From Heterobasidion occidentale (lineage: Eukaryota; Basidiomycota; Agaricomycetes; Russulales; Bondarzewiaceae), in contig JBCAQO010000007.1 of NCBI GenBank assembly GCA_039111635.1, forward strand, positions 248,001 to 312,000: a stretch of 64,000 nt of DNA. The letters run 5' to 3'. A program made the position numbers and the translations under genes. Below the pieces are notes generated by a model. That model was not told the DNA's origin and did no database searches. It was given only the letters and a program-made list of their open reading frames with translations. The first letter of the stretch is position 1. Each line of letters starts with the position of its first letter. This document shows positions 22,282-62,429 of this stretch, piece by piece.

Positions 22282-23442
22282 CCGAACGTGGAATTCGGGC
22301 CCCTCTTCGGTCTCGCGAAGCTGTAGTGCAGTGGCTCCGTGTTCTCATCGGCCTCGGAAGTCGAGGGCCGAAGTCTGAAGAGAAACCCGACTACGACTGT
22401 CAGGTTTGCGACAAGAAGGCTGACAGCCGCCTGTGCACGGTTGCAAGTGAGACCGACTTGTCTGTATGCGACCGGGTTGAAATTTTACCTGAATGGTTGC
22501 CGCCCTGGACTCCGTCAGCCCTCCCACAGCGAAAACCGCGTAGGCATGGTACATGCTGACCGCGGTCGTGATCGACGTACTGCCGAAAACGGTCATCAAG
22601 CGTATCTTCAACGTCCTGTCAAGCACCACGGTCCATATGAGTCGGAGCGGAGCGACAATCAATATCGAATCCGTGATGACATCCGCTGAGCGATATAGAG
22701 TCAGATGCGCTGAGTGACAGGGAACATGAAGTGAGCGTACTGATGACCTGCGCTGCCGCGACGTCTTTGCCGAGGGGACAATGCGGAAGCGGAGAGGACT
22801 TCCAGGACTGGTCCCCCTCACATATCCACATCACTTGGGAGAAGAGTATGATCCATGCCACCACGAAGAAAGCAGCTAGGATGACGAGCGCACGGCGCAT
22901 GGTTCCAAACGAGATGCGGACGATGGTGAACAGGATCGACAACCTGGCACTCCTGTGGGGTGGAGACATGCTCTCACGATCAGCTTCACGATCGGGCGGG
23001 ACAGAACGACGGACCATGTGACACCATAGTAAAACTGGGCGGACCTGCAGAAATTGTCAGTCCCGGAGCATGGACAACAGGCGAGGACGACGAACATGTA
23101 GTACACGGCTATCTTGACCTGGTGAGGCACTTGAGCTGTGAACGCGCGGTCAGAACGCGGGCGCCGGGTGATTTTGCTCAAACTTACTCAGAGCTTTCAC
23201 AAACAATTCGATCGCGACCACGAGAACGACGAGGCATATGAAAGCCAGCATCGCGCAAGCGTCGTCCCACCAGAGCTTGCTCCTGGTGGCCCGCACGTAC
23301 AGACGGAAGGCAGTCACCAAGAGAGAGAATAAAGGTAGGACGATGCCCAATACTGGTCACAATGGAGACCATCAGCGCCAGGCATGGACGACGCTCGCTG
23401 CGCAAACTTACTGCGTATCTCGTCGATGGTGGGCTCTGGCAT
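22282..23442 (-). pseudogene. Seven-helix fungal rhodopsin-like membrane protein, copy 1, 3'-truncated
   Basis: ATG 23,442 gives MPEPTIDEIR, an intron, then LGIVLPLFSLLVTAFRLYVR and WWDDACAMLAFICLVVLV. Later exons give FYYGVTW, SARLSILFTIVRISFGTMRR, ALVILAAFFVVAWIILFSQV, VITDSILIVAPLRLIWTVVL and SLLVANLTVVVGFLFRLR. This is the hydrophobic pattern of the fungal rhodopsin-domain/Pth11-like integral membrane proteins. The block edge at 22,282 cuts off the cytoplasmic tail after RPKRGPNSTFG, and the frame runs into unrelated sequence. Membrane helices are retained, so a shortened protein is conceivable. It is transcribed divergently from the O-methyltransferase. Confidence 0.65.
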
Positions 23443-24157
23443 ATCGGCTGTGACTGGATGAAGAACAGGTGGTGCTATGAGCGCCAACGTCCATGAGTTG
23501 CTCAAAACCATCCCCAATGGGCCTGGCAGCCGCACGATGGTGGACGCCGATCTGACACGGACGCGCTCTGATGCTGAACAGGGCACAGCTTGAAGGCCAG
23601 GACGGGCCCAGACGCCGTCGCAGGTCCGAGCGCCCCGCTGAGCTATCCATCAGAGAGCAGGGAGGCTGTCACAAGGGAACATTTATGGGGTCGTCGACGA
23701 CTTCGGTGCGTGGGTCCAAGCAGTGCAAACAGCGATGGTGAGCTATGAAACCAATCAGTGAAGCATTCTCCATCAAGGCCAACTTCGTACGCGCCGAGGC
23801 TCTGCATATGCAGAGTCAGACTTGCCGCATCGATGAAGGGCCATGCGTTCGGCCTAGGCCGCTGGCGGCGGAGTTCGCCGAGCGGGCGTCTGCCTCCAAC
23901 TCTACCAGTCGGTCTTCTTTGTCTGATCGCGCTGATTCCGTTTCTACCTTGAAGGAGGGATCACAACCTGATGCAGATTCAGAAGCTCGACGTGAACCCT
24001 CAGGCCTCAGGCCTCAGTTCTACCTGGCGGGAATGGATCGATGTTCGGCGAACCGGCTTCATCGCTTGCTTTTGATGTCTGTGTCTGTGTATGCCAGCTT
24101 CTGACCAGGATCTGACCCTCTGGTTTTCCCCCTCTGCCCAGCACGCCCGCAAACCCC
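23443..24157. promoter_or_regulatory. Divergent promoter region, copy 1
   Basis: About 715 bp between the starts of the membrane protein (minus) and the O-methyltransferase (plus). It contains a perfect 16-bp palindrome, CTCTGCATATGCAGAG, at 23,800-23,815, kept in copy 2 (45,295-45,310) and copy 3 (53,468-53,483), and a direct repeat of CCTCAGG near 24,000. A binding site for a dimeric regulator is an inference. Confidence 0.4.
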
Positions 24158-26105
24158 ATGGCCAGTCCCCGACAAGCCCTCGAAGCCCTCCTGTCCCTCA
24201 TCAATCAGGCCGCCCACGACGCAATCGACCAGTACCAGTCCACCAAGTTCCCCTCTCTCGATGTCCCCGCTCGTCTGCCCGAGGACGACCTTCCCCTCAA
24301 ACGAGCTCTCCGCATCCTCGAGGGCGCATGTTTCCAGCTGTGCACAACCCTCGCGCCCCCCGACCTGGTCATGTTCCGCGTCAGTAGCCTGTCCGTTTCG
24401 CAGCGTGCGTGACGGTGATCTCCAGCCTGTCCTCTGCAGCGCTCCATGGAACCGATCGACTCTGCATGCCTGCGCGTCGCGGTGAATGCCAAGGTTGCCG
24501 ACATACTCTTCGAACATCCCCAGGGCCTTCACGTCCGCGAAATCTCTCAAAGGACCGGCCTCGACGAAGGGAAACTGTTGAAGATCTTGCGCAACCTCTC
24601 CACCAGACACTGCTTCCGTGAAGGTATGGCGCTATTGAACACCGTTCCGCCCTTCACGGTCGCGCTCAGACCTATGGACCGCTCTCTCCACAGTCGCTCC
24701 AGATGTTTTCGCAAACAATCGCCTGTCGTTCATCCTTGCCAACGACAGCCCTACCGCCGCGTTGACGTCTCTGATGATGGAAGACATGAACAAGATCGCC
24801 GTCACCAACTTTTACGAAGCCCTGGTCGATCCCGACTATGGCCACTCGTACGACTCTCGCAGGACCGCTTTCGGACACGGCGTCAAGCGTGAAATGCCCG
24901 ACGCCACGCTGTTCGACTGGCTTCAACGTCATGTGCGTCCCTTCGATCTCGAGTCGAGCTGTTTCCCTCATTCCGAGTACGACAGCCTGCATCCAGAGAG
25001 GTATGCTCGTGCTTTTCCATCTTGTGCTGGTCGTCCCCGGTCGCTCACGGCTCGTGTTGAGCGCTTCCACCGGGGCATGATTGGAATGGCGGCGGTCACC
25101 GATTGCCAGGCCGTGGTCGAACGTGAGTTGCGGTGAACTCGAGTCACCCGAGCTGCTGGATGGTCACGATGCTTCCCGCAGAGTTTCCGTGGGATGCGCT
25201 TGCTCCCGGTGCAACCGTGTGTGACGTGGGCAGCGGTGTGGGAGCGGTGATGGAGTCACTCGCGACGCGGCACCCTCACGTCCACGTCACTCTCCAAGAC
25301 CTTCCTGTGGTCATAGATCGTGCTCGCGCCGTGAGTCGCCTCCCTGCGTGCCTCAAAAATCGACCCTTCGCGCGCTGATGAGACCGTCCAGCACTGGCAG
25401 CTGGAGAATGCGGACGTTGTCAAAGACAATCGTGTCGACTTTGTCTCGCTTGATTTTCTCAAGGAATCACCTGTCAAGGGCCAGGACATCTACTTTGTGC
25501 GCTCGATTTCTCGGCCATGTCCACGATGCTGTGGCCAACCGACGCATAGATCCGACAGGTTCTTCACAATTGGAATGACCAGGACTGCGTCACCATCCTG
25601 AGGAAGGTTCGGGATGTCATGAGCAAAGGCAGTCGTATTCTGATACATATGCCCTCTGTCTTGCCCGACGGACCACCCCTGTTCTCAGCCATTTTTTTCG
25701 CCGACAGACGAGTATGTGTTGCAATCGAAGCCAGGGATCGATCGCCAGGACCAAGGCGACCGTAGCGGCCAGGATATGGTGAACAAGAATCAGTGTCTGC
25801 TCACGCACGCGGCTGGGAGGGTTTGCAGGCTCCGGAGCCTCTTCTTCCCAACTACGGCTTTGGCAGCTCCAGGGCCCACCTGGGAGACGTGAACATGCAC
25901 ATCCTCACGAACGCTGGAGAGCGGACTTTGGACGACTTCAAGGAACTAGGGTGGGTTCACTCTCGTGAGCGTATCGGACGATCCTCGCTCATCCCACGAT
26001 GTCTACCACAGTCGTCTCTCTGGATTGCGATTCATCAAGATGTGGGACTTTGTGGAGACGGGGTTGGTTGAATTAGCACTGGAATCGCGCGAGGGTCGGG
26101 AGTGA
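24158..26105 (+). CDS. COMT-like O-methyltransferase, copy 1
   Basis: SAM-dependent O-methyltransferase of the plant COMT/fungal OMT type, transferring methyl to a phenolic or similar hydroxyl. Start ATG 24,158 (MASPRQALEALL). Then comes an N-terminal dimerisation and winged-helix part (ISQRTGLDEGKLLKILR), HSYDSRRTAFGHGVKREMP, the SAM motif CDVGSGVGAVMESL with acidic TLQDLP after it, the active-site segment LHNWNDQD carrying the catalytic His, and a tail assembled over introns: APEPLLPNYGFGSSRAHLGD, NAGERTLDDFKEL, FIKMWDFVETGLVEL. At least seven introns interrupt it. The intron before LHNWND is uncertain because copies 1/2 and 3 differ by one base there. The halogenase follows in the same orientation after about 740 bp, fitting a methoxylation step in the same pathway. 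Confidence 0.75.
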
Positions 26106-26363
26106 TGTAGGATATCAGGCCAGACACGGGTCCATCGGCATCATTCTGTACTGCTACTCGGACTCGGGCTGTCTCCAACAGTTCCGCGGGTGTGCACACG
26201 GACCCGTTCGATAGATAACCAACCCATAAATGGGAATTCAGTCGAATACCGCTTGAGCGAAAATACAAGGATGGCTGGGCGCTATTCTCCTGCCCGGACT
26301 CGTTCTGGGCGACTCTGGTTCTTGAACTTCGCAGAGCGTCAGCGCTCCTCAGTGGGTTCTGTC

Positions 26364-26427
26364 TTCTGATCTATCATTCTGATCTGTCATTCTGATCCGT
26401 CATTCTGATCTGTCATTCTGATCTGTC
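26364..26427. repeat. Minisatellite, about 13-bp unit, copy 1
   Basis: Four to five copies of CATTCTGATCTGT, with small changes, upstream of the halogenase. The same array is at 42,680-42,743 and 56,047-56,107 with different unit details. Confidence 0.8.
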
Positions 26428-26765
26428 TGTCTGACACGTCGAGTGCCGTTCATCCCCCCCCCCGTACATTCTCCTTGCTTCAGAATGCATGAGCGCTCCC
26501 GAGTCCCCACTCAGAATAGCGTGCGCCTGCTGTACGAAAGCAGGAACACGCTCGTTGATATGCGCGAAGACAGGGACCACGAGGACAGGGACCGGGAAGA
26601 CGAGGGTTTGTAGGCGAACGCTGAGATCTAGCGATATCACGTACCTCGACGCTTCAACGCCATCCTCGGCACCGGCCGAATGACTGCGACTTGCGAGCAC
26701 TGAGCAGTGATGCAGTCTCCGAAAAATTGACACCTCGCTGAAATCGGTGCACAATGGAATGGTGC

Positions 26766-26772
26766 TATATAA
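26766..26772 (+). promoter_or_regulatory. TATA box of halogenase copy 1
   Basis: TATATAA 71 bp upstream of the halogenase ATG, conserved at 42,336-42,342 (reverse) and 56,445-56,451. Confidence 0.55.
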
Positions 26773-26842
26773 GCTCCAGTAAATTGCACAATACAGCCCG
26801 ACCTCTCTTGCACTTGCTGTACGATCGTCACCTCCAGATATC

Positions 26843-29033
26843 ATGGGACTCGTTTCTTCTATGGTACGCACGTCGGATCGCTTGCACGGCCTGTGCTGCA
26901 TCTCAAACGGCCTGCCGTCTCCAGCCTCTCAAGGCACAGGTTCTCGTCATAGGAGGTGGTCCCTCTGGTTCCTATTCTGCGACGCTGCTTGCCAGAGGTA
27001 CTTGATGCTCTTGGTGCATGCCTTGATCGCGCTGATTTCCATGCCACACGCTCAGAGGGCTTCGACGTCGTGCTGCTCGAGAGCGACGTATTTCCGCGGT
27101 TCGGAACTTCCAACTCGCCGACGGAGAATGTCGCTGACGAACCCGCAGATATCACATCGGGGAAAGCCTCTTGCCTTCCATTCATCAATTTCTGGCTCTC
27201 ATAGATGCCGACGACCTTCTCTCATCTCACGGCTTCACGCCAAAGGTAACCCACTCGCTCTTCGCCTCTGTCCGACGCGACCTTACTAACCCTTGTGCAG
27301 CCCGGCGCCGCCGTCAAGCTCAATCAGTTCAGCCGTGAAGGATGTAAGCCAACGATCGTGCTGCGCCTCTGGCAAACGCTCACGTCGGCGCTTTCCACCC
27401 ATCAGACACCGACTTTACATCTCTGGACTCTAACAATCAGGCATGGAATGTGGTCAGTGAAAGCTCCATCTGAACGAACCGCGCACGCTCATGGGGATAC
27501 TCGCCTAGATCCGAGCCGAGTTTGACGACATCATGTTGAAGAATGCGGCCAACAACGGCGTCAAGGTGTTCCAAGGCGTCAAGGTCGTCAACATCGTATT
27601 CAGCGACCGGCACCCCGAGAGGCCCGTCGCCGCCGAATGGGTGTCCAAGTCGGGCGCAAAGGGGTCCGTTCGTTTCGAGTGGCTCGTGGATGCCTCCGGG
27701 CGTGCCGGAATCATGTCGACTAGGCATCTGAAAAACCGGACGTTCAATCAGAGCCTGAGGAACGTTGCCTGCTGGGGCTACTGGGAGAGGGGGAAAGGTG
27801 TACTCTCCTGGGACGACGAGGGAGAACGCGCCGTGGTTTCGAGGCATTGACGGTGAGCGCGCGCCCCATCGCTAGCGCCGTTTGCTTCGAATTAATCGAA
27901 TTTCATCTGACGTGTGCTCGCAGACGAAACGGGTTGGAGTTGGTACATCCCGCTTCACGACGGGACGGTTTCCGTGGGGTTCGTCACCACGGAGGAGTCC
28001 AGCGTCGCGAAGAAAGCTGAGACGCGGCGTGGTTTCGAAGGTCGGCCCGTCGACGACGTGGTTCTGAAGACGCACTACTTGGACCAGCTTCGGTTCACTC
28101 CGGGGCTGGCGAGCTTGCTGGAAAAGGCGTGGCTGAGCAGCGAGGTCAAGTCCGCCAGCGACTACAGCTACAAGGCGACCGCGGTAGCGGGAGATCACTT
28201 CCAGATAGTAGGAGATGCGGGCGGTACGTGCCGATCGGCGCGACTCAGAGGGAGCGGAGTGGATTTGCTGAATGCTCTACAGCTTTCATAGACCCATTCT
28301 TCTCATCCGGTGTGCATCTCGCGTTCACGAGCGCGCTATCCTCCGCATGCACCATCGCAGCCTCCATCAGAGGCCACTGCAGTGAACGCGAGGCTCAGAC
28401 GTATCACGAACTCAAGGTGGGAACCTCGTACACCCGGTGAGTCGCCATGCCCCATGCGCGTCGGGTTCGCGTTGACGGCGGCGTGGACATGGATCAGGTT
28501 CTTGATGGTCGTTCTGAGCGCGTACAAGCAGGTCAAGGCACAGCACACGCCTGTGCTGCAGGACTTGAACGAGGGCAACTTTGACCGGGCGTTTGCGCTT
28601 CTCAGACCAGGTGAGCAAAGACCGCTCGTGCGGCTGCGTTGATCTGACCTCGGTCTGGACATGAAAGTGCTGCAAGAGGCGGGGGACGTGGGGAAAGAGC
28701 TGACGGAAGACGAGGTGCAAAGGGCGATCGAGTTCTGCTCGAACCTGTTCGCTCCGACGGACCCGAAGATGCACTCGACGGTCGCTGCCAGGGTGGATCG
28801 AAGGTTGGTGGACAAGCAAGGCCCTATCCTGTTGTCCGAGGACGTCAAGAAGATCGTGGGGGAAGAGGACGAGGAGGCGATGCATGTGTTGAACGAAATC
28901 AACGCGCGGAAGCCGATCCACACGATGTACGATGTAGCGCAGCAGTTCGGGCACGAGGCGTGGGGCGGGTTTGTGCCTGTGTGCGTTAGAGGGAAGCTGG
29001 GACTGGACGGCGTGGGAGTACTATAGACGATAG
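26843..29033 (+). pseudogene. Flavin-dependent halogenase, copy 1, frameshifted
   Basis: FADH2-dependent halogenase. MGLVSSM (ATG 26,843), intron 26,864-26,939, then VLVIGGGPSGSYSATLLAR (FAD-binding GxGxxG), EGFDVVLLESDVFPR, YHIGESLLPSIHQFLALID, the KPGAAVKLNQF segment bearing a Lys, [12 protein letters not shown], and GWSWYIPLHDGTVSVGF, the WxWxIP halogenase signature. HFQIVGDAG and [18 protein letters not shown] follow, then a long C-terminal helical part. It resembles the phenol/aryl halogenases of Armillaria type. Compared with copies 2 and 3 this copy has an extra G near 27,784, an extra T near 27,837 and a missing G near 27,849, which break the frame around residues GYW...FEAL. The C-terminal exon also differs by one base from copy 3 (PVCVRGK instead of PVALEGSWDW). 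As sequenced it is not intact. Confidence 0.75.
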
Positions 29034-29606
29034 CGAGAAGCAGGCGTAGGCGTAGGCGTGTTTCGATCTTTCGTTTGTTTATCGATTGTTGCCACCGCAT
29101 GATCGCACCGACCGCCAACTTGCCTCCGCCACGGCGCCAACACTCCGCCAACTTGGAGGCGCGCGATGTCGATGTCGGCGACCTGACTGATTGCCGGACG
29201 TAGGCATGGTTGCTGACTAACGACGCCAGCGCTTGTTCTTCACCGCTCGAGGCACTGGACGTCCGCATCCAGAACAGAGACAGATCAGATCAGAATGGAA
29301 TCTGTACAGGCGGCAAGAAGACAGACATCCACCCAGACGCAGGTGCTGCGTCGAAGTACGGCATGCTGCATGGAGCCCCCCCATTGGGGTGTCCTCGGCA
29401 GCCCTCGTTCTCACGTGTGAGTTCCTCTCTGCATCGACTCGCCGCTGACTAGCACCCACAAGCGCCGTCGAACCAAAGGTGCGCACATTCCATTCCTGGG
29501 CCGAGCATCCAATCTGGGGCACGGACCTTAAAAGGCGTTGAGCTCGCCTTTCCCCGTCGACGCCTCTCACTCAGCAACATCGCCGACGACCGCACTCACC
29601 TTTCTC
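29034..29606. other. Intergenic region between halogenase and hydrolase, copy 1
   Basis: No gene. Contains a GTAGGC hexamer run (two units here and in copy 2, three in copy 3 near 58,690) and a TTAAAA element about 80 bp before the hydrolase start. Confidence 0.5.
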
Positions 29607-30726
29607 ATGGCCTCCTCCTCGATCTCGTCCGGAAAACTCGTCTCTTCCAAGGACGGCACCCTCATCTACGCAGACGCAGCCGGTAACCCCAAGAACCCCG
29701 GCATCGTCTTCCTCCACGGCCTCTCCCTGAACGCGACCTGCTTCGACGATGCCTTCGCCAACGCGGACATCCTCAAGCATTTCTACCTCGTCAGCGTCTC
29801 CCCGCCTCGACGCCCTCCGACCCATCTCTGATCTCCTCCTCATCATCTTCACCTTCCAGGTCCGCTACGACATGCGTGGTCACGGCAGGAGCGGGAAGCC
29901 AGACACGGCACACGGCCACCTCTCCCACCTCTACGCAGAGGACTACGCCGCCGTCGCCGCCGCCTTTGGCCTGAGAAAGCCGATCTTTGTAGGATGGTGA
30001 GCTCCGCCCCCGCCCGTCTCCCTCTCTCGCCTCCCACAGGTCGCTGACACACCACACCGCCATTCAACAGGAGCCTCGGCAGTGCGTTTCTTCCTGCTGA
30101 TCTCCCGTGATCGCATCCCGTCCGTCCACTCGCTCACTCACCCTCGCCCCAAAGGCACCGTCATATGTGACATCGCGGCGCACCTGCCCCCGGACACACT
30201 CTCCAGCATCGTCTATCTCGGCGGCCTACCCTTCATCGGCCCCATCATGGGCATCATCGGCACCCCGGTCATCAACGGCTTCCTCCCCGGACTGTTCACC
30301 ACCGAGGACGTCGGGCTGAGCACCAAGACGGCGGTCGATTTCGTCGACTCTCTCTTCGTTGACCCCAAGGCGGTCTCGTTCAGGAAAAAGTGTGCATGGA
30401 TCGGCAGCTCGTTCTTGACGACGCCCCAGGTGAAGCAGCTGATCCTGACGCGGCCTCAGGACCCGACCAAGCTGCACGCTCTCGGACAGACGGGCTTCCC
30501 TCTGCTGATCGTGAGCGGGAAAGAGGACAGCCAGGTGATGGGCGAGGCGCTCGCCGGGGAAATGAAAAAGACGTTCACGAATGTGGAGGTGCTGATTGTC
30601 AACGGCGCGGGGCACGCGGTGTTGGAAGACCGTCCCGATGTGGTGCTCGGGCGAATCGCCTCTTTCGCAACCAAGGTCGGTGCCAAGGTGGGTCCCTTTG
30701 ACTATGAAACCTCGCTAGGCCGTTGA
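29607..30726 (+). CDS. Alpha/beta hydrolase, copy 1, intact
   Basis: Four exons, 29,607-29,789, 29,860-29,996, 30,071-30,081 and 30,155-30,726, sum to 903 nt, a 300-residue protein in frame. Motifs: FLHGLSLNATCFDD (oxyanion-hole HG), MRGHGRSGKPDTAHGH, the nucleophile elbow GWSLGS, the acid region VSGKEDSQV, and GHAVLEDRPD with the catalytic His. The nucleophile Ser is encoded in an 11-nt exon, GAGCCTCGGCA. This is the esterase/lipase-like hydrolase fold; no signal peptide is visible, so a cytosolic enzyme is likely. Substrate unknown; it may hydrolyse an ester or lactone in the same pathway as the halogenase. ATG 29,607 is the first Met in an upstream-open frame. Confidence 0.8.
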
Positions 30727-30894
30727 CGATGATCCGCAGTAAGTCTCAAAAATCTCCCGGCCCTGGGCGCTTCGGGCCTCCGTGCTGTATGATAGTGTAG
30801 GAAGCGGGTTTGGGGAACTGGTTCATTGAATCCGCCGCGTGTATTGCCTTTGAGATTGCTAGAATTAAACGCTTTTCACCATCGTTTCAACGTC

Positions 30895-32223
30895 TTGATG
30901 CCTTCCGTGAGGGGACACCGAAATAGACCCTGACCGCGTGTGCGACAGCATCTGATAGGACTATTCTTGCATATGTGTTGTCACTTGTGTGCGAAATCGT
31001 GTTGTTCAATGCTCAATTTGAAGGGCTCGTGTTCATTGCGCAATTGAAGCCGTACCGCTCAAGCTCATGAATGGCCTTCCTGATTTTTGTTTATAAACAC
31101 CATGGTCGCTGTATTTGATCATTTGATCATATTGGTCACAATTTTCCACTTCATAAGTAGCTGCTAGCATCAGACGTACGATTGGCTCACGTGGATATTC
31201 GAGTTATGCACTTTCTGACAGTGTCGTGATGTTTTTGTCAAATGCCGATAGTGACATCTTCGGATCTCGGAAGACGGCTAATTGTACTGGTTCGTGGAAA
31301 ATCCGATTCGAGATGATCTATCACGACTTGACGCCCGCATAGACTCCACATGCTGGCAAATCGGCATTTTCATGTACACAGATCCAGAAGAGATTGATCA
31401 ACACTGGGATTTTTTCGGCAACAGTTTGAGGTGTTTTGCTGTCTACCTTGTGTGTCAACAGTCATCAGAGTAGTTGTCGTGTCAGTGTTCAGATCTTTCA
31501 CCATCTCGCAGGAGACTTCATTCAATTGAGTGTCTGACTGGTGATCGCACGCTACGCTTCTATTCGGTACCTCTAGAAGTGCAGGAGACTATTGGAGAAA
31601 CTGCGTTCGCTAACTAGCGCTCCTACGGCGGCCAGTCCCCTCGATTTTCTCATCATCATCTTTAGAAGCTCTATGTAGTCCACCTCTAACCGCCCAGCCA
31701 ACTAGGCCTGGCACAGGCACAGTGTGTTCATCATTGCTTGTGCCAATTTTATACCACATCGGGAGGCTGTCCTTCCATCACTAATCAGACGATTGTCGCT
31801 ATCGGCAATTGATGCTGGCGCGCTTTTGCAGGCCAGCCGTCAAGACCTCATCACCCAGACAATTACGCCACCACGAACGGCAGCAACTGAGGAGTACCAA
31901 GCAAGTGGTCCAAATTGCTGATGCAAGGGGATACATACATAATCTTAGATTGAACCACTTCAAATGTTCGTTTTTCGGCTTTCCCGGGGTTCTGTTGATC
32001 GCCGGCGAACTCGCTCTCAGCCATCTCACTCGTTCCTTGCGAATGTCATCCCCATTGTCTCCAAGATGGGCTGAAGCAAGATACGTATGAGGAAGAGAAT
32101 GATACAGACACAGATACGTACAGACATGGTCAAGTCATACAGCTCGCCGTGAAAAGACTTTATATTTCCGATTAATAAATAAAATGGGAAAGAAAAGTAA
32201 ACATATTACACAATGCTAACCAC
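30895..32223. other. Unique spacer right of copy 1
   Basis: No homology to the flanks of copies 2 and 3. Short frames only; no gene recognised. Confidence 0.5.
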
Positions 32224-32227
32224 GTTT

Positions 32228-33581: not shown

Positions 33582-33595
33582 GTCGACTGTGACTG

Positions 33596-34771
33596 CTTGA
33601 ACTAACTGTAGTGGTCATATATATACTTACATCCAGATCGTACTGGAAGGTCAAACTCCCGCGATCTGCCAGCCAAAAGATGATCAATAAGTCGGATCTC
33701 GAACAAAAGCGCGTGGCATGCTTCTGATTTGACCACGCGTTGAGAAATCTGAGCAGCATATGCTTGTGAGAGACTGAAGGGCCTCGATGGGCCGGATTCT
33801 TCCGTGGAACTGCCATAACAGACGCGCCTCGCAGTCCCATGATATCCGTATCACTGACGCCCCACGGGCTGCTATTTTCATGAGCCATGTGTCCGTTCTC
33901 AGATATCATGGAGGGTGAACGCAATCCTCTTCTATTTGCGCTTCCGTATCATGCTACTCGAGGCGCCTTTATGTCATGGGTAATCTGAGCGCTGAAAATT
34001 GCTATCCTTATAGGAAACACATAATGACTATTTGATACCAGCCATCATGCATCGAGTATCTCCACTGCAGAGTTAGAATGTCGTGCAAGCGACGTCAAAG
34101 TAAGCTCCATGGAGCGTCTTCAACTCAGAAGCAAGACATGTACGAGTCGTCACCACTGGCCTTACCCCGCGCGGGATGTGATTGCGTTGAAAAAAAGAGA
34201 CATGAATGAGTCGGATGACTAATGTCAACAGGCGATATAGTACACTCACCATCTCACCATCCTAGTCTCCGTTGCTGACCAACACAGAAGACAGTCGTTC
34301 TCGTAACATGTAGCCTCGATCGACGATGACGTGGCGGCGCTTTGGACAGTTTCCCTCATCGGAGTTTGAAGTGCCATAGAGTGCCATTTGCTTTTTTGGG
34401 AGGTTAGTTTCAGTTGAATCGTGCCACTTGGGGATAACTTGCAACTTGCCCAAGCCGTACAAGTCAGGTTAGGTATGCGTATTACTCCTCCATATGAGTG
34501 CACCCGAGCGTGGTATAACCCGCCCCTGTACTGAGGGTTTCCCCATCCGCTGTCGTGAAACTCTAGACAGTCAAGCAGGCGAAAGCTGTCCGTGCAGTCT
34601 TCACGACCGCAAGAGGACGTGATATAGTTCCGCACAGAATTTATGGAGTGACTGTACGTTCTTTCTCGTGAGAACCCATGTGCTTACAGTGGGACAGATA
34701 CCAGCCTCAACCTTGTTGGTTGAATGTGGATATGTAATTGATGGTGCGCATGTCTTAAATGGACTCCATTC
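33596..34771. other. Spacer before the large inverted repeat
   Basis: Short frames only (for example 34,246-34,635 minus); no recognisable gene. Confidence 0.5.
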
Positions 34772-51665: not shown

Positions 51666-53112
51666 TCACTTGTTATTTGGGGATGATCTTGGCGTCGTCT
51701 CGATACAAGCGAATTCAGCAAGAGAGTGAGTGTATAAATAGTGCATAACGACAACGACGTGTCTACTTTGAACACTGCTCGTGCTTTCATTCGAATGAGA
51801 GACGATCTTCAGCTCGTACGTGTCCTGAGGTTGTGATTCAGTCTCTCCTGGTTGGCTCGTCAACGTGCGAGAGTCTCCAAAGACGGGGTTGAACGGCCCA
51901 ATCGTCGCACTCTGCCCTCGGGCTTCCGTGTTGCCGACAGTCGAGATCAACCCGAACGTGGAATTCGGGCCCCTCTTCGGTCTCGCGAAGCTGTAGTGCA
52001 GTGGCTCCGTGTTCTCATCGGCCTCGGAAGTCGAGGGCCGAAGTCTGAAGAGAAACCCGACTACGACTGTCAGGTTTGCGACAAGAAGGCTGACAGCCGC
52101 CTGTGCACGGTTGCAAGTGAGACCGACTTGTCTGTATGCGACCGGGTTGAAATTTTACCTGAATGGTTGCCGCCCTGGACTCCGTCAGCCCTCCCACAGC
52201 GAAAACCGCGTAGGCATGGTACATGCTGACCGCGGTCGTGATCGACGTACTGCCGAAAACGGTCATCAAGCGTATCTTCAACGTCCTGTCAAGCACCACG
52301 GTCCATATGAGTCGGAGCGGAGCGACAATCAATATCGAATCCGTGATGACATCCGCTGAGCGATATAGAGTCAGATGCGCTGAGTGACAGGGAACATGAA
52401 GTGAGCGTACTGATGACCTGCGCTGCCGCGACGTCTTTGCCGAGGGGACAATGCGGAAGCGGAGAGGACTTCCAGGACTGGTCCCCCTCACATATCCACA
52501 TCACTTGGGAGAAGAGTATGATCCATGCCACCACGAAGAAAGCAGCTAGGATGACGAGCGCACGGCGCATGGTTCCAAACGAGATGCGGACGATGGTGAA
52601 CAGGATCGACAACCTGGCACTCCTGTGGGGTGGAGACATGCTCTCACGATCAGCTTCACGATCGGGCGGGACAGAACGACGGACCATGTAACACCGTAGT
52701 AAAACTGGGCGGACCTGCAGAAATCGTCAGTCCCGGAGCATGGACAACAGGCGAGGACGACGAACATGTAGTACACGGCTATCTTGACCTGGTGAGGCAC
52801 TTGAGCTGTGAACGCGCGGTCAGAACGCGGGAGCCGGGTGATTTTGCTCAAACTTACTCGGAGCTTTCACAAACAATTCGATCGCGACCACGAGAACGAC
52901 GAGGCATATGAAAGCCAGCATCGCGCAAGCGTCGTCCCACCAGAGCTTGCTCCTGGTGGCCCGCACGTACAGACGGAAGGCAGTCGCCAAGAGAGAGAAT
53001 AAAGGTAGGACGATGCCCAATACTGGTCACAACGGAGACCATCAGCGCCAGGCATGGACGACGCTCGCTGCGCAAACTTACTGCGTATCTCGTCGATGGT
53101 GGGCTCTGGCAT
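51666..53112 (-). CDS. Seven-helix rhodopsin-like membrane protein, copy 3
   Basis: As copy 2 (start ATG 53,112), but a one-base loss near the end (GTTCAAAG against GTTCGAAAG) bypasses the usual stop after TTSVRK and adds about 35 residues (SSVQSRHVVVVMHYLYTHSL onward) before TAA at 51,666. All helices are kept. Its 3' half matches copy 1, while its 5' half matches copy 2. Confidence 0.65.
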
Positions 53113-53467
53113 ATCAGCTGTGACTGGATGAAGAACAGGTGGTGCTATGAGCGCCAACGTCCATGAGTTGCTCAAAACCATCCCCAATGGGCCTGGCAGC
53201 CACACGATGGATGATGGACGCCGATCTGACGCGGACGCGCTCTGATGCTGAACAGGGCACAGCTTGAAGACCAGGACGGGCCCAGACGCCGTCGCAGGTC
53301 CGAGCGCCCCACTGAGCTATCCATCAGAGAGCAGGGAGGATGTCACAAGGGAACGTTTATGGGGTCGTCGGCGACTTCGGTGCGTGGACAGTGCGAACAG
53401 CGATGGTGAGCTATGAAACCAATCAGTGAAGCATTCTCCATCAAGGCCAACTTCGTACGCGCCGAGG

Positions 53468-53483
53468 CTCTGCATATGCAGAG
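53468..53483. promoter_or_regulatory. Conserved 16-bp palindrome, copy 3 divergent promoter
   Basis: CTCTGCATATGCAGAG, as in copies 1 and 2. Just downstream, copy 3 alone has a short duplication (GAAGGAGTGATGAAGG). Confidence 0.4.
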
Positions 53484-53837
53484 TCAGACTTGCCGCATCG
53501 ATGAAGGAGTGATGAAGGGCCATGCGTTCGGCCTAGGCCGCTGGCGGCGGAGTTCGCCGAGCGGGCGTCTGCCTCCAACTCTACTAGTCGGTCTTCTTCG
53601 TCTGATCGCGCTGATTCCGTTTCTTACCTTGAAGGAAGGATCACAACCTGATGCAGATTCAGAAGCTCAACGTGAACCCTCAGGCCTCAGGCCTCAGTTC
53701 TACCTGGCGGGTATGGATCGATGTTCGGCGAACCGGCTTCATCGCTTGCTTTTGATGTCTGTGTCTGTGTCTGCCAGCTTCTGACCAGGATCTGACCCTC
53801 TGGCTTTCCCCCTCTGCCCAGCACGCCCACAAACCCC

Positions 53838-55789
53838 ATGGCCAGTCCCCGACAAGACCTCGAAGCCCTCCTGTCCCTCATCAATCAGGCCGCCCACGAC
53901 GCAATCGACCAGTACCAGTCCACCGAGTTCCCCTCTCTCGATGTCCCCGCTCGTCTGCCCGAGGACGACCTTCCCCTCAAACGAGCTCTCCGCATCCTCG
54001 AGGGCGCATGTTTTCAGCTGTGCACAACCCTCGCGCCCCCCGACCTGGTCATGTTCCGCGTCAGTAGCCTGTCCGTTTCGCAGCGTGCGTGACGGTGATC
54101 TCCAGCCTGTCCTCTGCAGCGCTCCATGGAACCGATCGACTCTGCATGCCTGCGCGTCGCGGTGAATGCCAAGGTTGCCGACATACTCTTCGAACATCCC
54201 CAGGGCCTTCACGTCCGCGAAATCTCCCAAAGGACCGGCCTCGACGAAGGGAAACTGTTGAAGATCTTGCGCAACCTTTCCACCAGACACTGCTTCCGTG
54301 AAGGTATGGCGCTATTGAACACCGTTCCGCCCTTCACGGTCGCGCTCAGACCTATGGACCGCTCTCTCCACAGTCGCTCCAGATGTTTTCGCAAACAATC
54401 GCCTGTCGTTCATCCTTGCCAACGACAGCCCTACCGCCGCGTTGACGTCTCTGATGATGGAAGACATGAACAAGATCGCCGTCACCAACTTTTACGAAGC
54501 CCTGGTCGATCCCGACTATGGCCACTCGTACGACTCTCGCAGGACCGCTTTCGGACACGGCGTCAAGCGTGAAATGCCCGACGCCACGCTGTTCGACTGG
54601 CTTCAACGTCATGTGCGTCCCTTCGATCTCGAGTCGAGCTGTTTCCCTCATTCCGAGTACGACAGCCTGCATCCAGAGAGGTATGCTCGTGCTTTTCCAT
54701 CTTGTGCTGGTCATCCCCGGTCGCTCACGGCTCGTGTTGAGCGCTTCCACCGGGGCATGATTGGAATGGCGGCGGTCACCGATTGCCAGGCCGTGGTCGA
54801 ACGTGAGTTGCGGTGAACTCGAATCACCCGAGCTGCTGGATGGTCACGATGCTTCCCGCAGAGTTTCCGTGGGATGCGCTTGCTCCCGGTGCAACCGTGT
54901 GTGACGTGGGCAGCGGTGTGGGAGCGGTGATGGAGTCACTCGCGACGCGGCACCCTCACGTCCACGTCACTCTCCAAGACCTTCCTGTGGTCATAGATCG
55001 TGCTCGCGCCGTGAGTCGCCTCCCTGCGTGCCTCAAAAATCGACCCTTCGCACGCTGATGAGACCGTCCAGCACTGGCAGCTGGAGAATGCGGACGTTGT
55101 CAAAGACAATGCGTGCGACTTTGTCTCGCTTGATTTTCACTCAAGGAATCGCTGTCAGGGCCAGGACATCTACTTTGTGCGCTCGATTTCTCGGCCGTGT
55201 CCACGATGCTGTGGCCAACCGATCGCATAGAATCCGACAGGTTCTTCACAATTGGAATGACCAGGACTGCGTCACCATCCTGAGGAAGGTTCGGGATGTC
55301 ATGAGCAAAGGCAGTCTGCTGATACGTATGCCCTCTGTCTTGCCCGACGGGACCCCCCTGTTCTCAGCCATTTTTTTCGCCGACAGACGAGTATGTGTTT
55401 GCAATCGAAGCAAGGATCGATCTCCATGGACCAAGGCGACCGTAAGCGGGCCAGGTATGTGAACAAGAATCAGTGTCTCTCACGCACGCGCTGGGATGGT
55501 TTGCAGGCTCCGGAGCCTCTTCTTCCCAACTACGGCTTTGGCAGCTCCAGGGCCCACCTGGGAGACGTGAACATGCACATCCTCACGAACGCTGGAGAGC
55601 GGACTTTGGACGACTTCAAGGAACTAGGGTGGGTTCACTCTCGTGAGCGTATCGGACGATCCTCGCTCATCCCACGATGTCTACCACAGTCGTCTCTCTG
55701 GATTGCGATTCGTCAAGATGTGGGACTTTGTGGAGACGGGGTTGGTTGAATTAGCACTGGAAATCGCGCGAGGGTCGGGAGTGATGTAG
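53838..55789 (+). CDS. COMT-like O-methyltransferase, copy 3
   Basis: Start ATG 53,838 (MASPRQDLEALL). It carries the same winged-helix, SAM motif CDVGSGVGAVMESL and LHNWND as copies 1 and 2. Around 55,110-55,170 compensating small indels alter the stretch following VVKDN. One extra base before LHNWND gives an open reading HRIRQVLHNWNDQD, which may remove the need for an intron there. An extra A near the end changes the C-terminus to VELALEIARGSGVM. Probably coding, with less certainty than copies 1 and 2. Confidence 0.6.
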
Positions 55790-56046
55790 GATATCAGGCC
55801 AGACACGGGTCCATCGGCATCATTCTGTACTGCCTACTCGGACTCGGGCTGTCCTCCAACAGTTTCCGCGGTGTGCACAACGGACCCGTTCGATAGATAA
55901 CCAACCCATAAATGGGAATTGAGTCGAATACCGCTTGAGCGAAAATACAAGGATGGCTGCGCTATTTTCTCCTGCCCGGACTCGTTCGGGCGACTCTGGT
56001 TCTTGAACTTCGCAGAGCGTCAGCGCTCCTCAGTGGGTTCTGTCTT

Positions 56047-56107
56047 CTGATCTATCATTCTGATCTGTCATTCTGATCTGTCATTCTGATCTGTCATTCT
56101 GATCTTC
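56047..56107. repeat. Minisatellite, copy 3
   Basis: Four units of CATTCTGATCTGT, slightly different in phase and number from copy 1. Confidence 0.8.
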
Positions 56108-56524
56108 TGTCTGACACGTCGAGTGCCGTTCATCCCCACCCCCCCGTACGTTCTCCTTGCTTCAGAATGCATGAGCGCTCCCGAGTCCCCACTCAGAATA
56201 GCGTGCGCCTGCTGTACGAAAGCAGGAACACGCTCGTTTGATATGCGCGAAACAGGGACCACGAGGATAGGACCGGGAAGACAGGGTTTGTAGGCGAACG
56301 CTGAGATCTAGCGATATCACGTACCTCGACGCTTCAACGCCATCCTCGGCACCGGCCGAATGACTGCGACTTGCGAGCACTGAGCAGTGATGCAGTCTCC
56401 GAAAAATTGACACCTCGCTGAATCGGTGCACAATGGAATGGTGCTATATAAGCTCCAGTAAATTGCAACAATACAAGCCCGACCTCTCTCGCACTTGCTT
56501 GTACGATCATCACCTCCAGATATC

Positions 56525-58683
56525 ATGGGACTCGTTTCTTCTATGGTACGCACTCGGAAGTCGCTTGCACGGCTGTGCTGCATCTCAAACGGCCTGCCGT
56601 CTCCAGCCTCTCAGGCACAGTTCTAGTCATAGGAGGTGGTCCCTCTGGTTCCTATTCTGCGACGCTGCTTGCCAGAGGTACTTGATGCTCTTGGTGCATG
56701 CCTGATCGCGCTGATTTCCATGCCACACGCTCAAGGGCTTCGACGTCGTGCTGCTCGAGAGCGACGTATTTCCGCGTTTCGGAACTTCCAACTCGCCGAC
56801 GGAGAATGTCGCTGACGAACCCCAGATATCACATCGGGGAAAGCCTCTTGCCTTCCATCATCAATTTCTGGCTCTCATAGATGCCGACGACCTTCTTCAT
56901 CTCACGGCTTCACGCCAAAGGTAACCCGCTCTTCGCCTCTGTCCGACGCGACCTTACTAACCCTTGTGCAGCCCGGCGCCGCCGTCAGCTCAATCAGTTC
57001 AGCCGTGAAGGATGTAAGCCAACGATCGTGCTGCGCCTCTGGCAAACGCTACAGTCGGCGCTTTCCACCCATCAGACACCGACTTTACATCTCTGGACTC
57101 TACAATCAGGCATGGAATGTGGTCAGTGAAAGCTCCATCTGAACGAACCGCGCACGCTCATGGGGATACTCGCCTAGATCCGAGCCGAGTTTGACGACAT
57201 CATGTTGAAGAATGCGGCCAACAACGGCGTCAAGGTGTTCCAAGGCGTCAAGGTCGTCAACATCGTATCAGCGACCCGGCACCCCGAGAGCCCGTCGCCG
57301 CCGAATGGGTGTCCAAGTCGGGCGCAAAGGGTCCGTTCGTTTCGAGTGGCTCGTGGATGCCTCCGGGCGTGCCGGAATCATGTCGACTAGGCATCTGAAA
57401 AACCGACGTTCAATCAGAGCCTGAGGAACGTTGCCTGCTGGGGCTACTGGAGAGGGGGAAAGGTGTACTCTCCTGGGACGACGAGGGAGAACGCGCCGTG
57501 GTTCGAGGCATTGACGGGTGAGCGCGCGCCCATCGCTAGCGCCGTTTGCTTCGAATTCATCGAATTCATCTGACGTGTGCTCGCAGACGAAACGGGTTGG
57601 AGTTGGTACATCCCGCTTCACGACGGGACGGTTTCCGTGGGGTTCGTCACCACGGAGGAGTCCAGCGTCGCGAAGAAAGCTGAGACGCGGCGTGGTTTCG
57701 AAGGTCGGCCCGTCGACGACGTGGTTCTGAAGACGCACTACTTGGACCAGCTTCGGTTCACTCCGGGGCTGGCGAGCTTGCTGGAAAAGGCGTGGCTGAG
57801 CAGCGAGGTCAAGTCCGCCAGCGACTACAGCTACAAGGCGACCGCGGTAGCGGGAGATCACTTCCAGATAGGAGATGCGGGCGGTACGTGCCGATCGGCG
57901 CGACTCAGGGGGAGTGGATTTGCTGAATGCTCTACAGCTTTCATAGACCCATTCTTCTCATCCGGTGTGCATCTCGCGTTCACGAGCGCGCTATCCTCCG
58001 CATGCACCATCGCAGCCTCCATCAGAGGCCACTGCAGTGAACGCGAGGCTCAGACGTATCACGAACTCAAGGTGGGAACCGTACCCCCGGTGAGTCGCCA
58101 TGCCCCATGCCCGTCGGGTTCGCGTTGACGGCGGCGTGGACATGGATCAGGTTCTTGATCGTCCTCAGAGCGCGTACAAGCAGGTCAAGGCACAGCACGC
58201 GCCTGTGCTGCAGGACTTGAACGAGGGCGACTTTGACCGGGCGTTTGCGCTTCTCAGACCAGGTGAGCAAAGACCGCTCGTGCGGCTGCGTTGATCTGAC
58301 CTCGGTCTGGACATGAAAGTGCTGCAAGGGGCGGGGGACGTGGGAAAAGAGCTGACGGAAGACGAGGTGCAAAGGGCGATCGAGTTCTGCTCGAACCTGT
58401 TCGCTCCGACGGACCCGAAGATGCACTCGACGGTCGCTGCCAGGGTGGATCGAAGGTTGGTGGACAAGCAAGGCCCTATCCTGTTGTCCGAGGACGTCAA
58501 GAAGATCGTGGGGAAGAGGACGAGGAGGCGATGCATGTGTTGAACGAAATCAACGCGCGGAAGCCGATCCACACGATGTACGATGTAGCGCAGCAGTTCG
58601 GGCACGAGGCGTGGGGCGGGTTTGTGCCTGTGGCGTTAGAGGGAAGCTGGGACTGGACGGCGTGGGAGTACTATAGACGATAG
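56525..58683 (+). pseudogene. Flavin-dependent halogenase, copy 3, several frameshifts
   Basis: Start ATG 56,525. The segment from about 56,550 to 57,400 has many single-base losses against copies 1 and 2 (for example in the GGGPSGSYSA approach, in EGFDVVLLES and in NIVFSDRHPE), and one G is missing near 58,513 (KKIVG then frame change). In contrast, the GYWRGGKVYSPG and GWSWYIPLHDGT regions are in frame, and only this copy gives the C-terminus FVPVALEGSWDWTAWEYYRR, which looks like the true end. As sequenced it cannot make the whole enzyme. Confidence 0.7.
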
Positions 58684-59265
58684 CGAGAAGCAGGCGTAGG
58701 CGTAGGCGTAGGCGTGTTTCGATCTTTCGTTTGTTCGATATCGATTGTTGCCCCGCATGATCGCGCCGACCGCCAACTTGCCTCCGCCACGGCGCCAACA
58801 CTCCGCCAACTTGGAGGCGCGCCATGTCGATGTCGGCGACCTGACTGATTGCCGGACGTAGGCATGGTTTGCTGACTAACGACGCCAGCGCTTGTTCTTC
58901 ACCGCTCGAGGCACTGGACGTCCGCATCCAGAACAGAGACAGATCAGATCAGAATGGAATCTGTACAGGCGGCAAGAAGACAGACATCCACCCAGACGCA
59001 GGTGCTGCGTCGAAGTACGGCATGCTGCATGGAGCCCCCCCATTGGGGTGTCCTCGGCAGCCCTCGTTCTCACGTGTGAGTTCCTCTCTGCATCGACTCG
59101 CCGCTGACTAGCACCCACAAGCGCCGTCGAACCAAAGGTGCGCACATTCCATTCCTGGGCCGAGCATCCAATCTGGGGCACGGACCTTAAAAGGCGTTGA
59201 GCTCGCCTTTCCCTGTCGACGCCTCTCACTCAGCAACGTCGCCGACGACCGCACTCACCTTTCTC

Positions 59266-60386
59266 ATGGCCTCCTCCTCGATCTCGTCCGGAAAACTCGT
59301 CTCTTCCAAGGACGGCACCCTCATCTACGCAGACGCAGCCGGTAACCCCAAGAACCCCGGCATCGTCTTCCTCCACGGCCTCTCCCTGAACGCGACCTGC
59401 TTCGACGATGCCTTCGCCAACACGGACATCCTCAAGCATTTCTACCTCGTCAGCGTCTCCCCGCCTCGACGCCCTCCGACCCATCTCTGATCTCCTTATC
59501 TTCATCTTCACCTTCCAGGTCCGCTACGACATGCGTGGTCACGGCAGGAGCGGGAAGCCAGACACGGCACACGGCCACCTCTCCCACCTCTACGCAGAGG
59601 ACTACGCCGCCGTCGCCGCCGCCTTTGGCCTGAGAAAGCCGATCTTTGTAGGATGGTGAGCTCCGCCCCCGCCCGTCTCCCTCTCTCGCCTCCCACAGGT
59701 CGCTGACACACCACACCGCCATTCAACAGGAGCCTCGGCAGTGCGTTTCTCACCTGCTGATCTCCCGTGATCGCATCCCGTCCGTCCACTCGCTCACTCA
59801 CCCTCGCCCCAAAGGCACCGTCATATGTGACATCGCGGCGCACCTGCCCCCGGACACACTCTCCGGCATCGTCTATCTCGGCGGCCTACCCTTCATCGGC
59901 CCCATCATGGGCGTCATCGGCACCCCGGTCATCAACGGCTTCCTCCCCGGACTGTTCACCACCGAGGACGTCGGGCTGAGCACCAAGACGGCGGTCGATT
60001 TCGTCGACTCTCTCTTCGTCGACCCCAAGGCGGTCTCGTTCAGGAAAAAGTGTGCATGGATCGGCAGCTCGTTCTTGACGACGCCCCAGGTGAAGCAGCT
60101 GATCCTGACGCGGCCTCAGGACCCGACCAAGCTGCACGCTCTCGGACAGACGGGCTTCCCTCTGCTGATCGTGAGCGGGAAAGAGGACAGCCAGGTGATG
60201 GGCGAGGCGCTCGCCGGGGAAATGAAAAAGACGTTCACGAATGTGGAGGTGCTGATTGTCGACGGCGCGGGGCACGCGGTGTTGGAAGACCGTCCCGATG
60301 TGGTGCTCGGGCGAATCGCCTCTTTCGCAACCAAGGTCGGTGCCAAGGTGGGTCCCTTCGACTATGAAACCTCGCTAGGCCGTTGA
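59266..60386 (+). CDS. Alpha/beta hydrolase, copy 3, intact
   Basis: Same four-exon structure as copy 1, with the one extra base lying in the third intron. It encodes FLHGLSLNATCFDD, MRGHGRSGKP, GWSLGS (Ser in the 11-nt exon) and GHAVLED, 300 residues. Amino-acid changes include Ala to Thr (FANTDIL), Ser to Gly (TLSGIVYL), Ile to Val (IMGVIG) and Asn to Asp (LIVDGAGH). Expected to be as active as copy 1. Confidence 0.8.
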
Positions 60387-62429
60387 CGATGATCCGCAGT
60401 AAGTCTCAAAAATCTCCCGGCCCTGGGCGCTTCGGGCCTCCGTGCTGTATGATAGTGTAGGAAGCGGGTTTGGGGAACTGGTTCATTGAATCCGCCGCGT
60501 GTATTGCCTTTGAGATTGCTAGAATTAAACGCTTTTCACCATCGTTTCAACGTCCCGCAAATTGTCGCTGTTCAGACTATGATTTGCAGCTTATTTGCCG
60601 TGTTCCTCAAGCCATTCGTCATCGTCAACATAGCCCGCACCGCTGATTTATGCGGTCAGTGCACTGCCTGCAATGCCTGCGGTTTCGTTGTGAAAGGTCT
60701 TGATAAATCCCTCGGAAATAGACAAATATTTTTCTAAGGATTCTGCCAAAGGCATATGTAAGTAGAGGATGTTTGAATCTTTACGCTCTGGGTCGCATGA
60801 GATCTTGATGAATGCACAAAGGAAATAAAATCTGGATGTTACACCGATGATCTGGCATGGGGCACTGGGGCGCATACGAGCAGGGTTTGTAACGTCCCAG
60901 ACCGTACTTTTTTTTGTGCTATCATCAGGATCCCAGCCAACGCAAAGCGGAAATATATTCAAGCATTCGCTGCTTACATATGCTTTTGGCCAAACCCTTA
61001 GAATATTGGTCTATTTCTAAGCGACTTATCAACATTTTTCCCAGGGAAACCGCAGGGCCTGCAGGCGGTGTTCGTAGACGCCAACAAGACAGCGCCACAT
61101 TTGCTCTACTGTCCTTCTATACACACAGCGTCCAAATGACGACATTGAACCCCTACCTGTCAGATAAATTCCCTGAGGCCAGTGACTTTATCTCTCCATT
61201 CGTCGCTCTCGCTGTAACGAGCTGTATCTCACGGGTCGACACGTATCGGCCTGTTTCCATCAATCTTTCTTGTGTTCTGATATCCTCTTATGATAGAGGA
61301 ACAAGTATGGTGAGTTAGTGCGGTGATGATCACAACCTTACAGAAATAAATGAACTATTTAAAGATGTTTTTTGAAGGGTACTGATTATCACCACCCCGC
61401 CATTGGTAGCACCTCTGACCGGGAATACCTGATGTCAGATCAATCAGAATCCCCCCACTCCGCCCACATACTCCAACTTGAGCGGCACGCTACAGGGGCC
61501 TGACAGCTGGTTGGAACGTTGACCGACCCCGGGCTTCAAATTGGACACCCTCGCGACTTCTACCCACGCGTTATCAGCACAGGCCACCTTTGAGCAGCTT
61601 TTTACGAGGAACATATGTGACAAGTGTGCGTGCGTCCACCGTTTTCATCCAAAGCGACTCACCTGATCATGCAATATAGTCAGTGCTCGAGGATTCTCCG
61701 TCAAGCTGTGAACTTCAGATAGAACCAACATCTTTCTCTGAAATCTGAATCACTCCTGTCTCCAAAAAGTTGGGGTTTGATGCTGACGCGAGGAATAACA
61801 GCAAACGCACCGGCGCCAACGCATGTCTTCCGTGACGCCTCGACTTGGCCTTCTATTCCCACTATGGTACTTCGGACTATGGCATGTGATAGCTGTTTAA
61901 AATCGCACCGCTGATATCACTTGCTGTCCCAGACTGAGACTACAATGCCGTGGACATATCACAGAAGATGATGGTTTGCGGGTGGGGTTCTCTTCATATG
62001 TCCCTTGCCTAGCTTCCCAGAGCTCGAAATCTTCGCTGTCGACCAAATAGGATCTTGAAGCCATCAAGCTGCGCAAACCCTGGCTTCCATATTCCATTTG
62101 TGCTAGAGCTTTCTCCGCTCCTTTCTGATGGTCGTCGTCACTCTGATCATCGTTCACCCCTACCTCTATTATTACAGCTTCTGGTGCGAAATTGACATGT
62201 CGACCATGTGAAGGGAAATGGAAGGGTAGGGAAGCTAGATGCGCTCGAACTTAGTCCTGTCTGAAGTGATGGAGGATGCCAGTCCTTCTCGTGAAGATGT
62301 GAAACGCAACACCGCTTATACTGGGCGACTATACGAATGGGGCGCACAGCTCGGAGATACCATGCACTGATATATATATTCAGATGAAGTAACTTGCCTA
62401 TCCATCGCTGTCTTCACCCCAATCATAAC
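60387..62429. other. Intergenic region with inverted paralogous exons (right arm)
   Basis: Right-arm mirror of 36,343-38,391. Minus-strand frame at about 60,648-60,815 (LYLHMPLAESLEKYLSISE, FIKTFHNETAGIAGS) and plus-strand frame at about 60,914-61,080 (IRCLHMLLAKPLEYWSISK, INIFPRETAGPAGG) are homologous and divergent. A minus frame at 61,897-62,157 is unrecognised. A TATA-like run (62,371-62,380) precedes the fusion gene. Confidence 0.4.
62371..62380 (+). promoter_or_regulatory. TATA-like element of the fusion gene
   Basis: TATATATATT, 50 bp upstream of ATG 62,430; the mirror copy is at 36,392-36,401. Confidence 0.45.

Follow-up and report, generated by a model that had tools for sequence, protein, structure and literature searches.

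A halogenase, O-methyltransferase and hydrolase block of Heterobasidion occidentale, assembled as two inverted pairs around a scaffold join, as a probable compact tailoring cluster

The present analysis concerns a 64,000-nucleotide stretch of the genome of Heterobasidion occidentale, a root-rot fungus of conifers (bases 248001-312000 of contig JBCAQO010000007.1, denoted C7; the whole stretch is referred to as the window, and positions are those of the window unless a contig is named) and an 8.6-kb block repeated in and just beyond it, at 270-325 kb of C7. Each copy of the block carries a rhodopsin-like membrane gene, an O-methyltransferase (OMT) gene, a RadH/ArmH-type flavin halogenase gene and a serine-type alpha/beta hydrolase gene. 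Self-BLAST of the window displayed three near-identical copies, A (22274-30894, forward strand), B (38224-46834, reverse strand) and C (51944-60554, forward strand), with identities over about 8.6 kb of 98.9% between A and B and 97.7% between A and C. A search of the genome with 6.5 kb of the block recovered four near-full-length copies, namely these three and copy D (window-equivalent 67880-76511, reverse strand). An earlier note on this DNA had described three copies of an 8.6-kb block as a triplicated cluster; the block is real and three copies do lie in the window, but the total is four, D being just outside it, and "triplicated" has to be given up for two inverted pairs with a scaffold join between them, which most likely represent two haplotypes.

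Gene models were built by eye, with splice sites read from the sequence. For copy D, the halogenase model has 530 residues in 11 exons, with GGGPSG at residue 17 (the FAD-binding GxGxxG), WSWYIP at residue 227 (WxWxIP) and GDAGAFIDP; it matches PF04820 with 101.4 bits (cut-off 21) and its best solved relative is RadH (PDB 8gu0; E 9.4e-134, residues 6-435). Judged by these features, the block halogenase is a fungal flavin-dependent enzyme of the RadH/ArmH type. The OMT model of copy D, with 449 residues in 11 exons and the glycine-rich S-adenosylmethionine motif DVGSGVG at residue 255, matches Methyltransf_2 (PF00891) with 87.3 bits (cut-off 22.3) and has 8pha as its best solved relative (E 2.5e-110); its dimerisation domain PF08100 stays under the cut-off (21.6 versus 25.6 bits), this domain being found in many listed relatives and absent from some. 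The hydrolase model of copy A (300 residues, 4 exons) has a GWSLG nucleophile elbow, where the splice is backed by the Peniophora relative P0261, and matches PF12697 (72.2 bits, cut-off 26.3) and PF00561 (61.4 bits, cut-off 25.8). Among solved structures, it comes closest to a putative hydrolase, an esterase and a non-heme haloperoxidase; a haloalkane dehalogenase was rejected, the elbow holding a serine and not an Asp nucleophile. Consequently, the WxWxIP-type halogenase, COMT-like OMT and alpha/beta hydrolase proposed from the sequence in the earlier note are all upheld by these matches, while its seven-helix membrane protein is accompanied by a match to PF20684 (Fungal rhodopsin) of 20.6 bits, below the cut-off of 27, for unspliced frame pieces.

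In copy A the seven-helix fungal-rhodopsin-like gene, delimited by its open reading frames (ORFs), lies at 22282-23442 on the reverse strand and appears to be cut at its 3' end by the left boundary of the block. The OMT (24158-26105; 11 exons, 449 residues), the halogenase (26843-29026; 11 exons) and the hydrolase (29607-30726) follow on the forward strand. Copy B has the OMT at 44952-42999, the halogenase at 42265-40093 and the hydrolase at 39509-38392, all on the reverse strand, and its membrane protein ORFs run on the forward strand from 45666 past the block edge to about 47013. In copy C the OMT (53838-55784), the halogenase (56525-58676) and the hydrolase (59266-60386) are on the forward strand, and the membrane protein ORFs run from 53112 on the reverse strand. 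A partial fifth copy of 1.4 kb (32197-33601, gene on the reverse strand), about 88-89% identical according to self-BLAST and ORFs, is limited to that end of the block which carries the membrane protein. Whether this partial copy has converted copy A was considered, and such a conversion is unsupported: at 10 ungapped sites where A alone differs, the fifth copy equals A at 4, the others at 5 and neither at 1.

From left to right the order of the elements is L-A-s-B-R-gap-R'-C-s'-D-R-right flank, A being the left member of the left inverted pair with flank L to its left and spacer s to its right. The gap (50664-50763) is a run of 100 N that separates A and B from C and D; joins made by RagTag are written in this way. 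Spacer s (30895-38223, 7.3 kb), of which the part at 34-38 kb has two near-full-length matches in the genome, has an inverted counterpart between C and D with 1.45% mismatch, which genome comparison places from 60555 to the window end at 64000 and beyond it up to copy D. Flank R, adjoining B (46835-50663), is found again next to D, with 0.97% mismatch, and a 1,180-base portion of it next to C. In all, 50764-76511 is the inverse of 22274-48016 (97.85% over 25,885 columns), and the left contig end, 38224-50663 (12.4 kb), is a direct copy of the right-contig interior at 67880-80336 (98.8%). Flank L (13.7-22.2 kb) has a single full-length match in the genome, which is itself; a second copy of it, which would mark the other haplotype, was not found with two queries, the first of which was overwhelmed by hits to a dispersed repeat (39 of 517 candidates scored) and the second of which matched only itself at full length. 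Near the left boundary of copy A, 56 bases (22145-22200) match contig C13 at 96%; the breakpoint of a mobile element or of a rearrangement may lie at this boundary. On both sides of the cluster, at 19738-22036 and at window-equivalent 83369-84863, there are older inverted paralogues (about 69-72% identical), which imply a region with a history of inverted duplication.

Several lines of evidence bear on whether the four copies exist in each nucleus. The H. occidentale assembly was built from FALCON-Unzip contigs with Pilon polishing and RagTag scaffolding on H. irregulare, giving 45.21 Mb in 160 scaffolds, the largest of 4.14 Mb (PMC11492984); the version analysed here comprises 45.05 Mb in 159 contigs. 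For H. parviporum, the portion of the source considered gives 32.8-33.3 Mb for most re-sequenced homokaryons (PMC5870257). The second-largest RNA polymerase subunit domain was found at four loci where three are expected from the three nuclear polymerases, and two stretches around such an RNA-polymerase gene, C7:1036001-1046000 and C7:1227001-1237000, are collinear with 97.9% identity over 9,991 columns (183 mismatches, 1.8%). Similarly, C48:17501-21500, on a small contig, repeats C10:1859001-1863000 in inverted orientation at 93.7% over 3,872 columns, with 85 mismatches (2.3%) and 159 gap columns. Such redundancy is a sign that haplotypes have been retained elsewhere in the assembly. Within the alignment of the four block copies, 38 of the 184 variant runs separate A and B from C and D, one separates A and C from B and D and none A and D from B and C, most of the others being private to one copy. 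Since the left contig end is repeated in the same orientation in the right contig, since the copies split in this manner and since redundancy is present elsewhere, it is considered fairly probable that each nucleus has one inverted pair and that the scaffold displays both haplotypes side by side. Contigs of two haplotypes differing in the orientation of the spacer would thereby have been set next to each other, giving four copies on the scaffold, and each nucleus would hold one inverted pair flanking the 7.3-kb spacer with a second methyltransferase.

The alternative that survives best, although rather unlikely, is that four real copies lie on one chromosome, produced by an inverted duplication of A-s-B-R centred in the gap, with their similarity kept by gene conversion, as a recent amplification in H. 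occidentale. A number of observations weigh against two haplotypes and some of them fit this alternative. From the contig start onwards, the 1,180 bases outside C equal R; a simple second haplotype would have L at this place, and R is what a palindrome centred in the gap predicts. The mismatch among block copies, 0.5-1.3% (1.45% for the spacer and 0.97% for R), is lower than that of the two redundant loci compared (1.8% and 2.3%), and the MCM genes were found at six loci as expected, with no redundancy. Moreover, two haplotypes require the assumption of a flip, the spacer having opposite orientations on the two sides. The older inverted paralogues of the left and right flanks (about 70-72%) also favor four real copies, as does a second locus on contig C12. 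There, a paralogous OMT and halogenase are present twice, at 1510088-1515079 and, inverted, at 1556768-1561770, in 5-kb arms that are 88% identical, too far apart to be likely haplotypes when these differ by about 2% elsewhere; the two copies are separated by a further 100-N gap whose edge is repeated (1523089-1523188), amid complex inverted and direct repeats. On the other hand, the gap in the window is a product of reference-guided scaffolding, the overlap of the left contig end with the right contig interior reaches the gap edge, and other assembly loci are redundant. Above all, an inverted duplication of A-s-B predicts that A groups with D and B with C, unless conversion has erased this, and the observed split is 38:1:0 in favor of A with B and C with D. 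A genuine four-copy palindrome of the halogenase-OMT-hydrolase cluster, amplified after the split from H. irregulare, homogenised by gene conversion and with an invertible spacer, is regarded as unlikely. As for three real tandem copies, they are ruled out by the fourth copy outside the window and by the dividing gap.

With regard to function, the block is best read as a compact tailoring cluster, the two-haplotype explanation of its copies included, and a probability of a little under 0.6 is given to this combined reading. The cluster would probably chlorinate and methylate a phenolic compound: the FADH2-dependent RadH/ArmH-type halogenase would chlorinate an electron-rich free phenol, the COMT-like methyltransferase would O-methylate the phenol, and the serine-type alpha/beta hydrolase would probably free or trim an ester or lactone. 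The same product, for which a chlorinated methoxy-aromatic is likely by enzyme class, would also be a substrate of the adjacent P450 and perhaps of a GMC oxidoreductase located to the right. The substrate and the order of the steps, like the flip of the spacer, are what we infer.

The genes around the block were searched with Pfam in frame scans, whose coverage was limited to one of the three minus-strand frames at 1-14.5 kb, to part of 30.9-33.6 kb and, in the right flank, to one frame per strand of a single stretch. In spacer s, a reverse-strand gene at 34978-36039 (ORF 35167-36039) matches the methyltransferase family PF13649 with 30.3 bits (cut-off 27) and, further along in its frame, a YCII-like domain with 19.8 bits, below the cut-off of 24; its open frame stops inside the YCII match, implying a stop or an intron there. 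Of the methyltransferase-YCII fusion proposed previously, the methyltransferase part is thus established by its domain match, but the YCII part stays below threshold. P450 genes had also been placed next to the block, and matches to PF00067 bear this out on both sides: one gene lies in flank R at about 47400-49435 on the reverse strand (101.9 bits, in two stretches) and a second to the left of the block at about 15500-17500, also on the reverse strand (55 and 30.1 bits in two frames, matches at about 16-17.4 kb), the limits of both being approximate. The textbook haem motif FxxGxRxCxG was not found in the one frame searched of either region. A GMC oxidoreductase domain is located further right, in the right flank.

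The previously reported absence of a polyketide synthase, non-ribosomal peptide synthetase or terpene cyclase from the window agrees with searches made along the contig. Ketosynthase gave six matches genome-wide, none of them on C7; AMP-binding was found on C7 at 2.19 Mb only among the matches listed (15 of 67 candidates scored); and the terpene synthase matches closest to the block on C7, at 134 and 436 kb, are separated from it by over 100 kb. Given these distances and the lack of a ketosynthase match on C7, the best reading is that of a tailoring cluster whose substrate is a ready-made phenol. Among the terpene synthase matches, look-alike pairs were observed, C118 with C7 and C4 with C8.

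Other features of the left part of the window consist of repeats. Related stretches of 1-2.7 kb, about 67-78% identical, are repeated from window-equivalent -20000 to 4200, that is, left of and at the window start, and this family gave no Pfam match in the scan of 1-14.5 kb, which covered four of the six frames. At 12001-12613 lies a 612-base dispersed repeat with at least 39 genome copies at 97-99% identity, perhaps the end of an LTR or other mobile element. An Rfam search of the whole window at gathering thresholds gave no match.

It was of interest to establish whether the linkage of the block genes recurs in relatives. The best 120 relatives of each protein were listed (from totals of 5283 for the halogenase, 285 for the OMT and 294 for the hydrolase), the halogenase and OMT searches having scored only candidates sharing most words, and two proteins on a contig of equal size within one species, read by eye from these lists, were taken as a sign of linkage; the following statements hold for these lists. 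The block halogenase is 93% identical to the putative halogenase P0001 of H. irregulare TC 32-1 and 66% identical to its paralogue P0003. There are six cases of a halogenase and an OMT on the same contig: two in Auriscalpium vulgare (27,016 and 67,288 bases), one for H. irregulare P0003 (1,764,121 bases) and three on large contigs of 1.5-3.2 Mb, which are weak evidence, in Lyophyllum shimeji, Mycena latifolia and Favolaschia claudopus. Halogenase and hydrolase likewise share one in six cases, including a 47,691-base contig of Bondarzewia mesenterica, where they are the adjacent genes g5488 and g5487, and contigs of Peniophora sp. CONT (134,134 bases), Leucogyrophana mollusca (62,950) and Mycena crocata (483,686); the remaining two, in Gloeophyllum trabeum and Hohenbuehelia grisea, are on contigs above 2.7 Mb and are weak.

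In a halogenase tree built from copy D and 47 of the 120 relatives listed (48 rows), the window copy groups with P0001 and Bondarzewia (support 98/91) and P0003 with two Auriscalpium proteins (100/99), the six forming one set (99/95). This grouping seems to imply two halogenase lineages that split before Heterobasidion and Bondarzewia did.

Against a cluster acting as one unit stands the fact that no contig in these lists carries halogenase, OMT and hydrolase together, and that no OMT or hydrolase orthologue is listed beside H. irregulare P0001 on its 2,304,243-base contig, where an annotation may be missing; no hydrolase of H. irregulare was listed at all. The best listed OMT relative is only 52% identical, which counts against a fixed unit, and the listed OMT relatives of Bondarzewia are on other contigs than its halogenase, which counts against a tight four-gene unit. 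The earlier note had asked for synteny in related genomes and had taken halogenase homologues without the block as evidence against its proposal. P0001 is such a homologue as far as the listed OMT and hydrolase orthologues go, but the halogenase-OMT and halogenase-hydrolase pairs are linked in other Agaricomycetes. Its idea of a tailoring-only cluster is retained insofar as no core enzyme was matched nearby and the paired linkage recurs; a tight four-gene unit has the above observations against it.

These same observations lend some weight to the possibility, judged distinctly unlikely, that the genes are mere neighbours, the halogenase acting alone on diffusible phenols, as is reported for the ArmH enzymes outside the melleolide cluster, and the OMT and hydrolase serving other routes. 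The isolated position of P0001 and the separate contigs of the Bondarzewia OMT relatives would fit this possibility, as does a review of which the part considered describes the melleolide cluster as having no halogenase gene (PMC9144378). It is opposed by linkage that is unlikely by chance, halogenase and OMT occurring together at the C12 paralogue as well as on two small contigs of Auriscalpium, and halogenase and hydrolase on three contigs under 200 kb in three genera. The combined reading as a compact tailoring cluster is still preferred.

Finally, the state of the reading frames was considered. As assembled and modelled, the halogenase is whole in one of the four copies (D), its frame being broken in A, B and C, and this also speaks against a functional cluster; the OMT is whole in three (A, B and D; broken in C) and the hydrolase in two (A and C; broken in B). 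These counts would be expected if the block were decaying, with most halogenase copies turned into pseudogenes and the product of the locus lost, but such decay is held to be improbable. At least one copy retains an open version of each of the three genes, and near-identical copies make polishing ambiguous. In the four-copy alignment, private variant events number 68 in C, 36 in A, 26 in B and 6 in D, and all 68 of copy C fall within a single 3.8-kb stretch (25.4-29.2 kb in block-A coordinates), 46 of them gapped, as in unpolished long-read sequence. Because of this concentration and these gaps, copy C looks poorly polished rather than decayed. The environmental protein P0241 was rejected as evidence of expression, its start continuing from intron sequence, so that it does not derive from a spliced transcript.

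Comparison with known systems places the block among familiar enzymes. RadH, whose FAD and WxWxIP motifs recur in the block halogenase, serves a PKS-made resorcylic lactone; unlike the RadH system, the scaffold of the block has no ketosynthase match. In the tree-pathogenic basidiomycete Armillaria mellea, the part of the literature considered describes several parallel halogenases, ArmH1-5, for melleolide chlorination, and proteins named armH1 or armH4 by their source (Tephrocybe, Stygiomarasmius) are 56-59% identical to the block halogenase; unlike in Armillaria, the block halogenase adjoins an OMT and a hydrolase. The entry for H. irregulare P0001 in a database clustered at 90% comprises a single sequence from a single contig and hence shows no second copy. 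Basidiomycetes make chlorinated anisyl metabolites, and phenol chlorination with O-methylation is the chemistry expected of this gene set. The literature search found no text joining these metabolites with the word "halogenase", and at title level, the H. irregulare genome paper not being covered, it found no paper dealing with a halogenase cluster in Heterobasidion. No word starting with "halogen" occurs in the main text, the part considered, of a spruce-bark transcriptome paper on H. irregulare and H. occidentale (PMC7125170).

Taken together, the locus presents known gene families in a new arrangement, with a copy number for which an assembly explanation is probable. In this public draft, a striking "triplication" coincides with a join made by reference-guided scaffolding, and it is not to be taken as gene dosage before read depth is checked. 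If the four-copy palindrome were true, the inverted pair on C12 would point to a repeated tendency of halogenation loci in Heterobasidion to amplify as inverted pairs, raising the dosage of a chlorinated metabolite. If the genes of the block act together, they would provide a tree-killing fungus with a small route to chlorinated methoxy-aromatics that lends itself to testing, and the two seemingly old halogenase lineages of Russulales, one beside a hydrolase and the other beside an OMT, would make the pathway dissectable by comparison.

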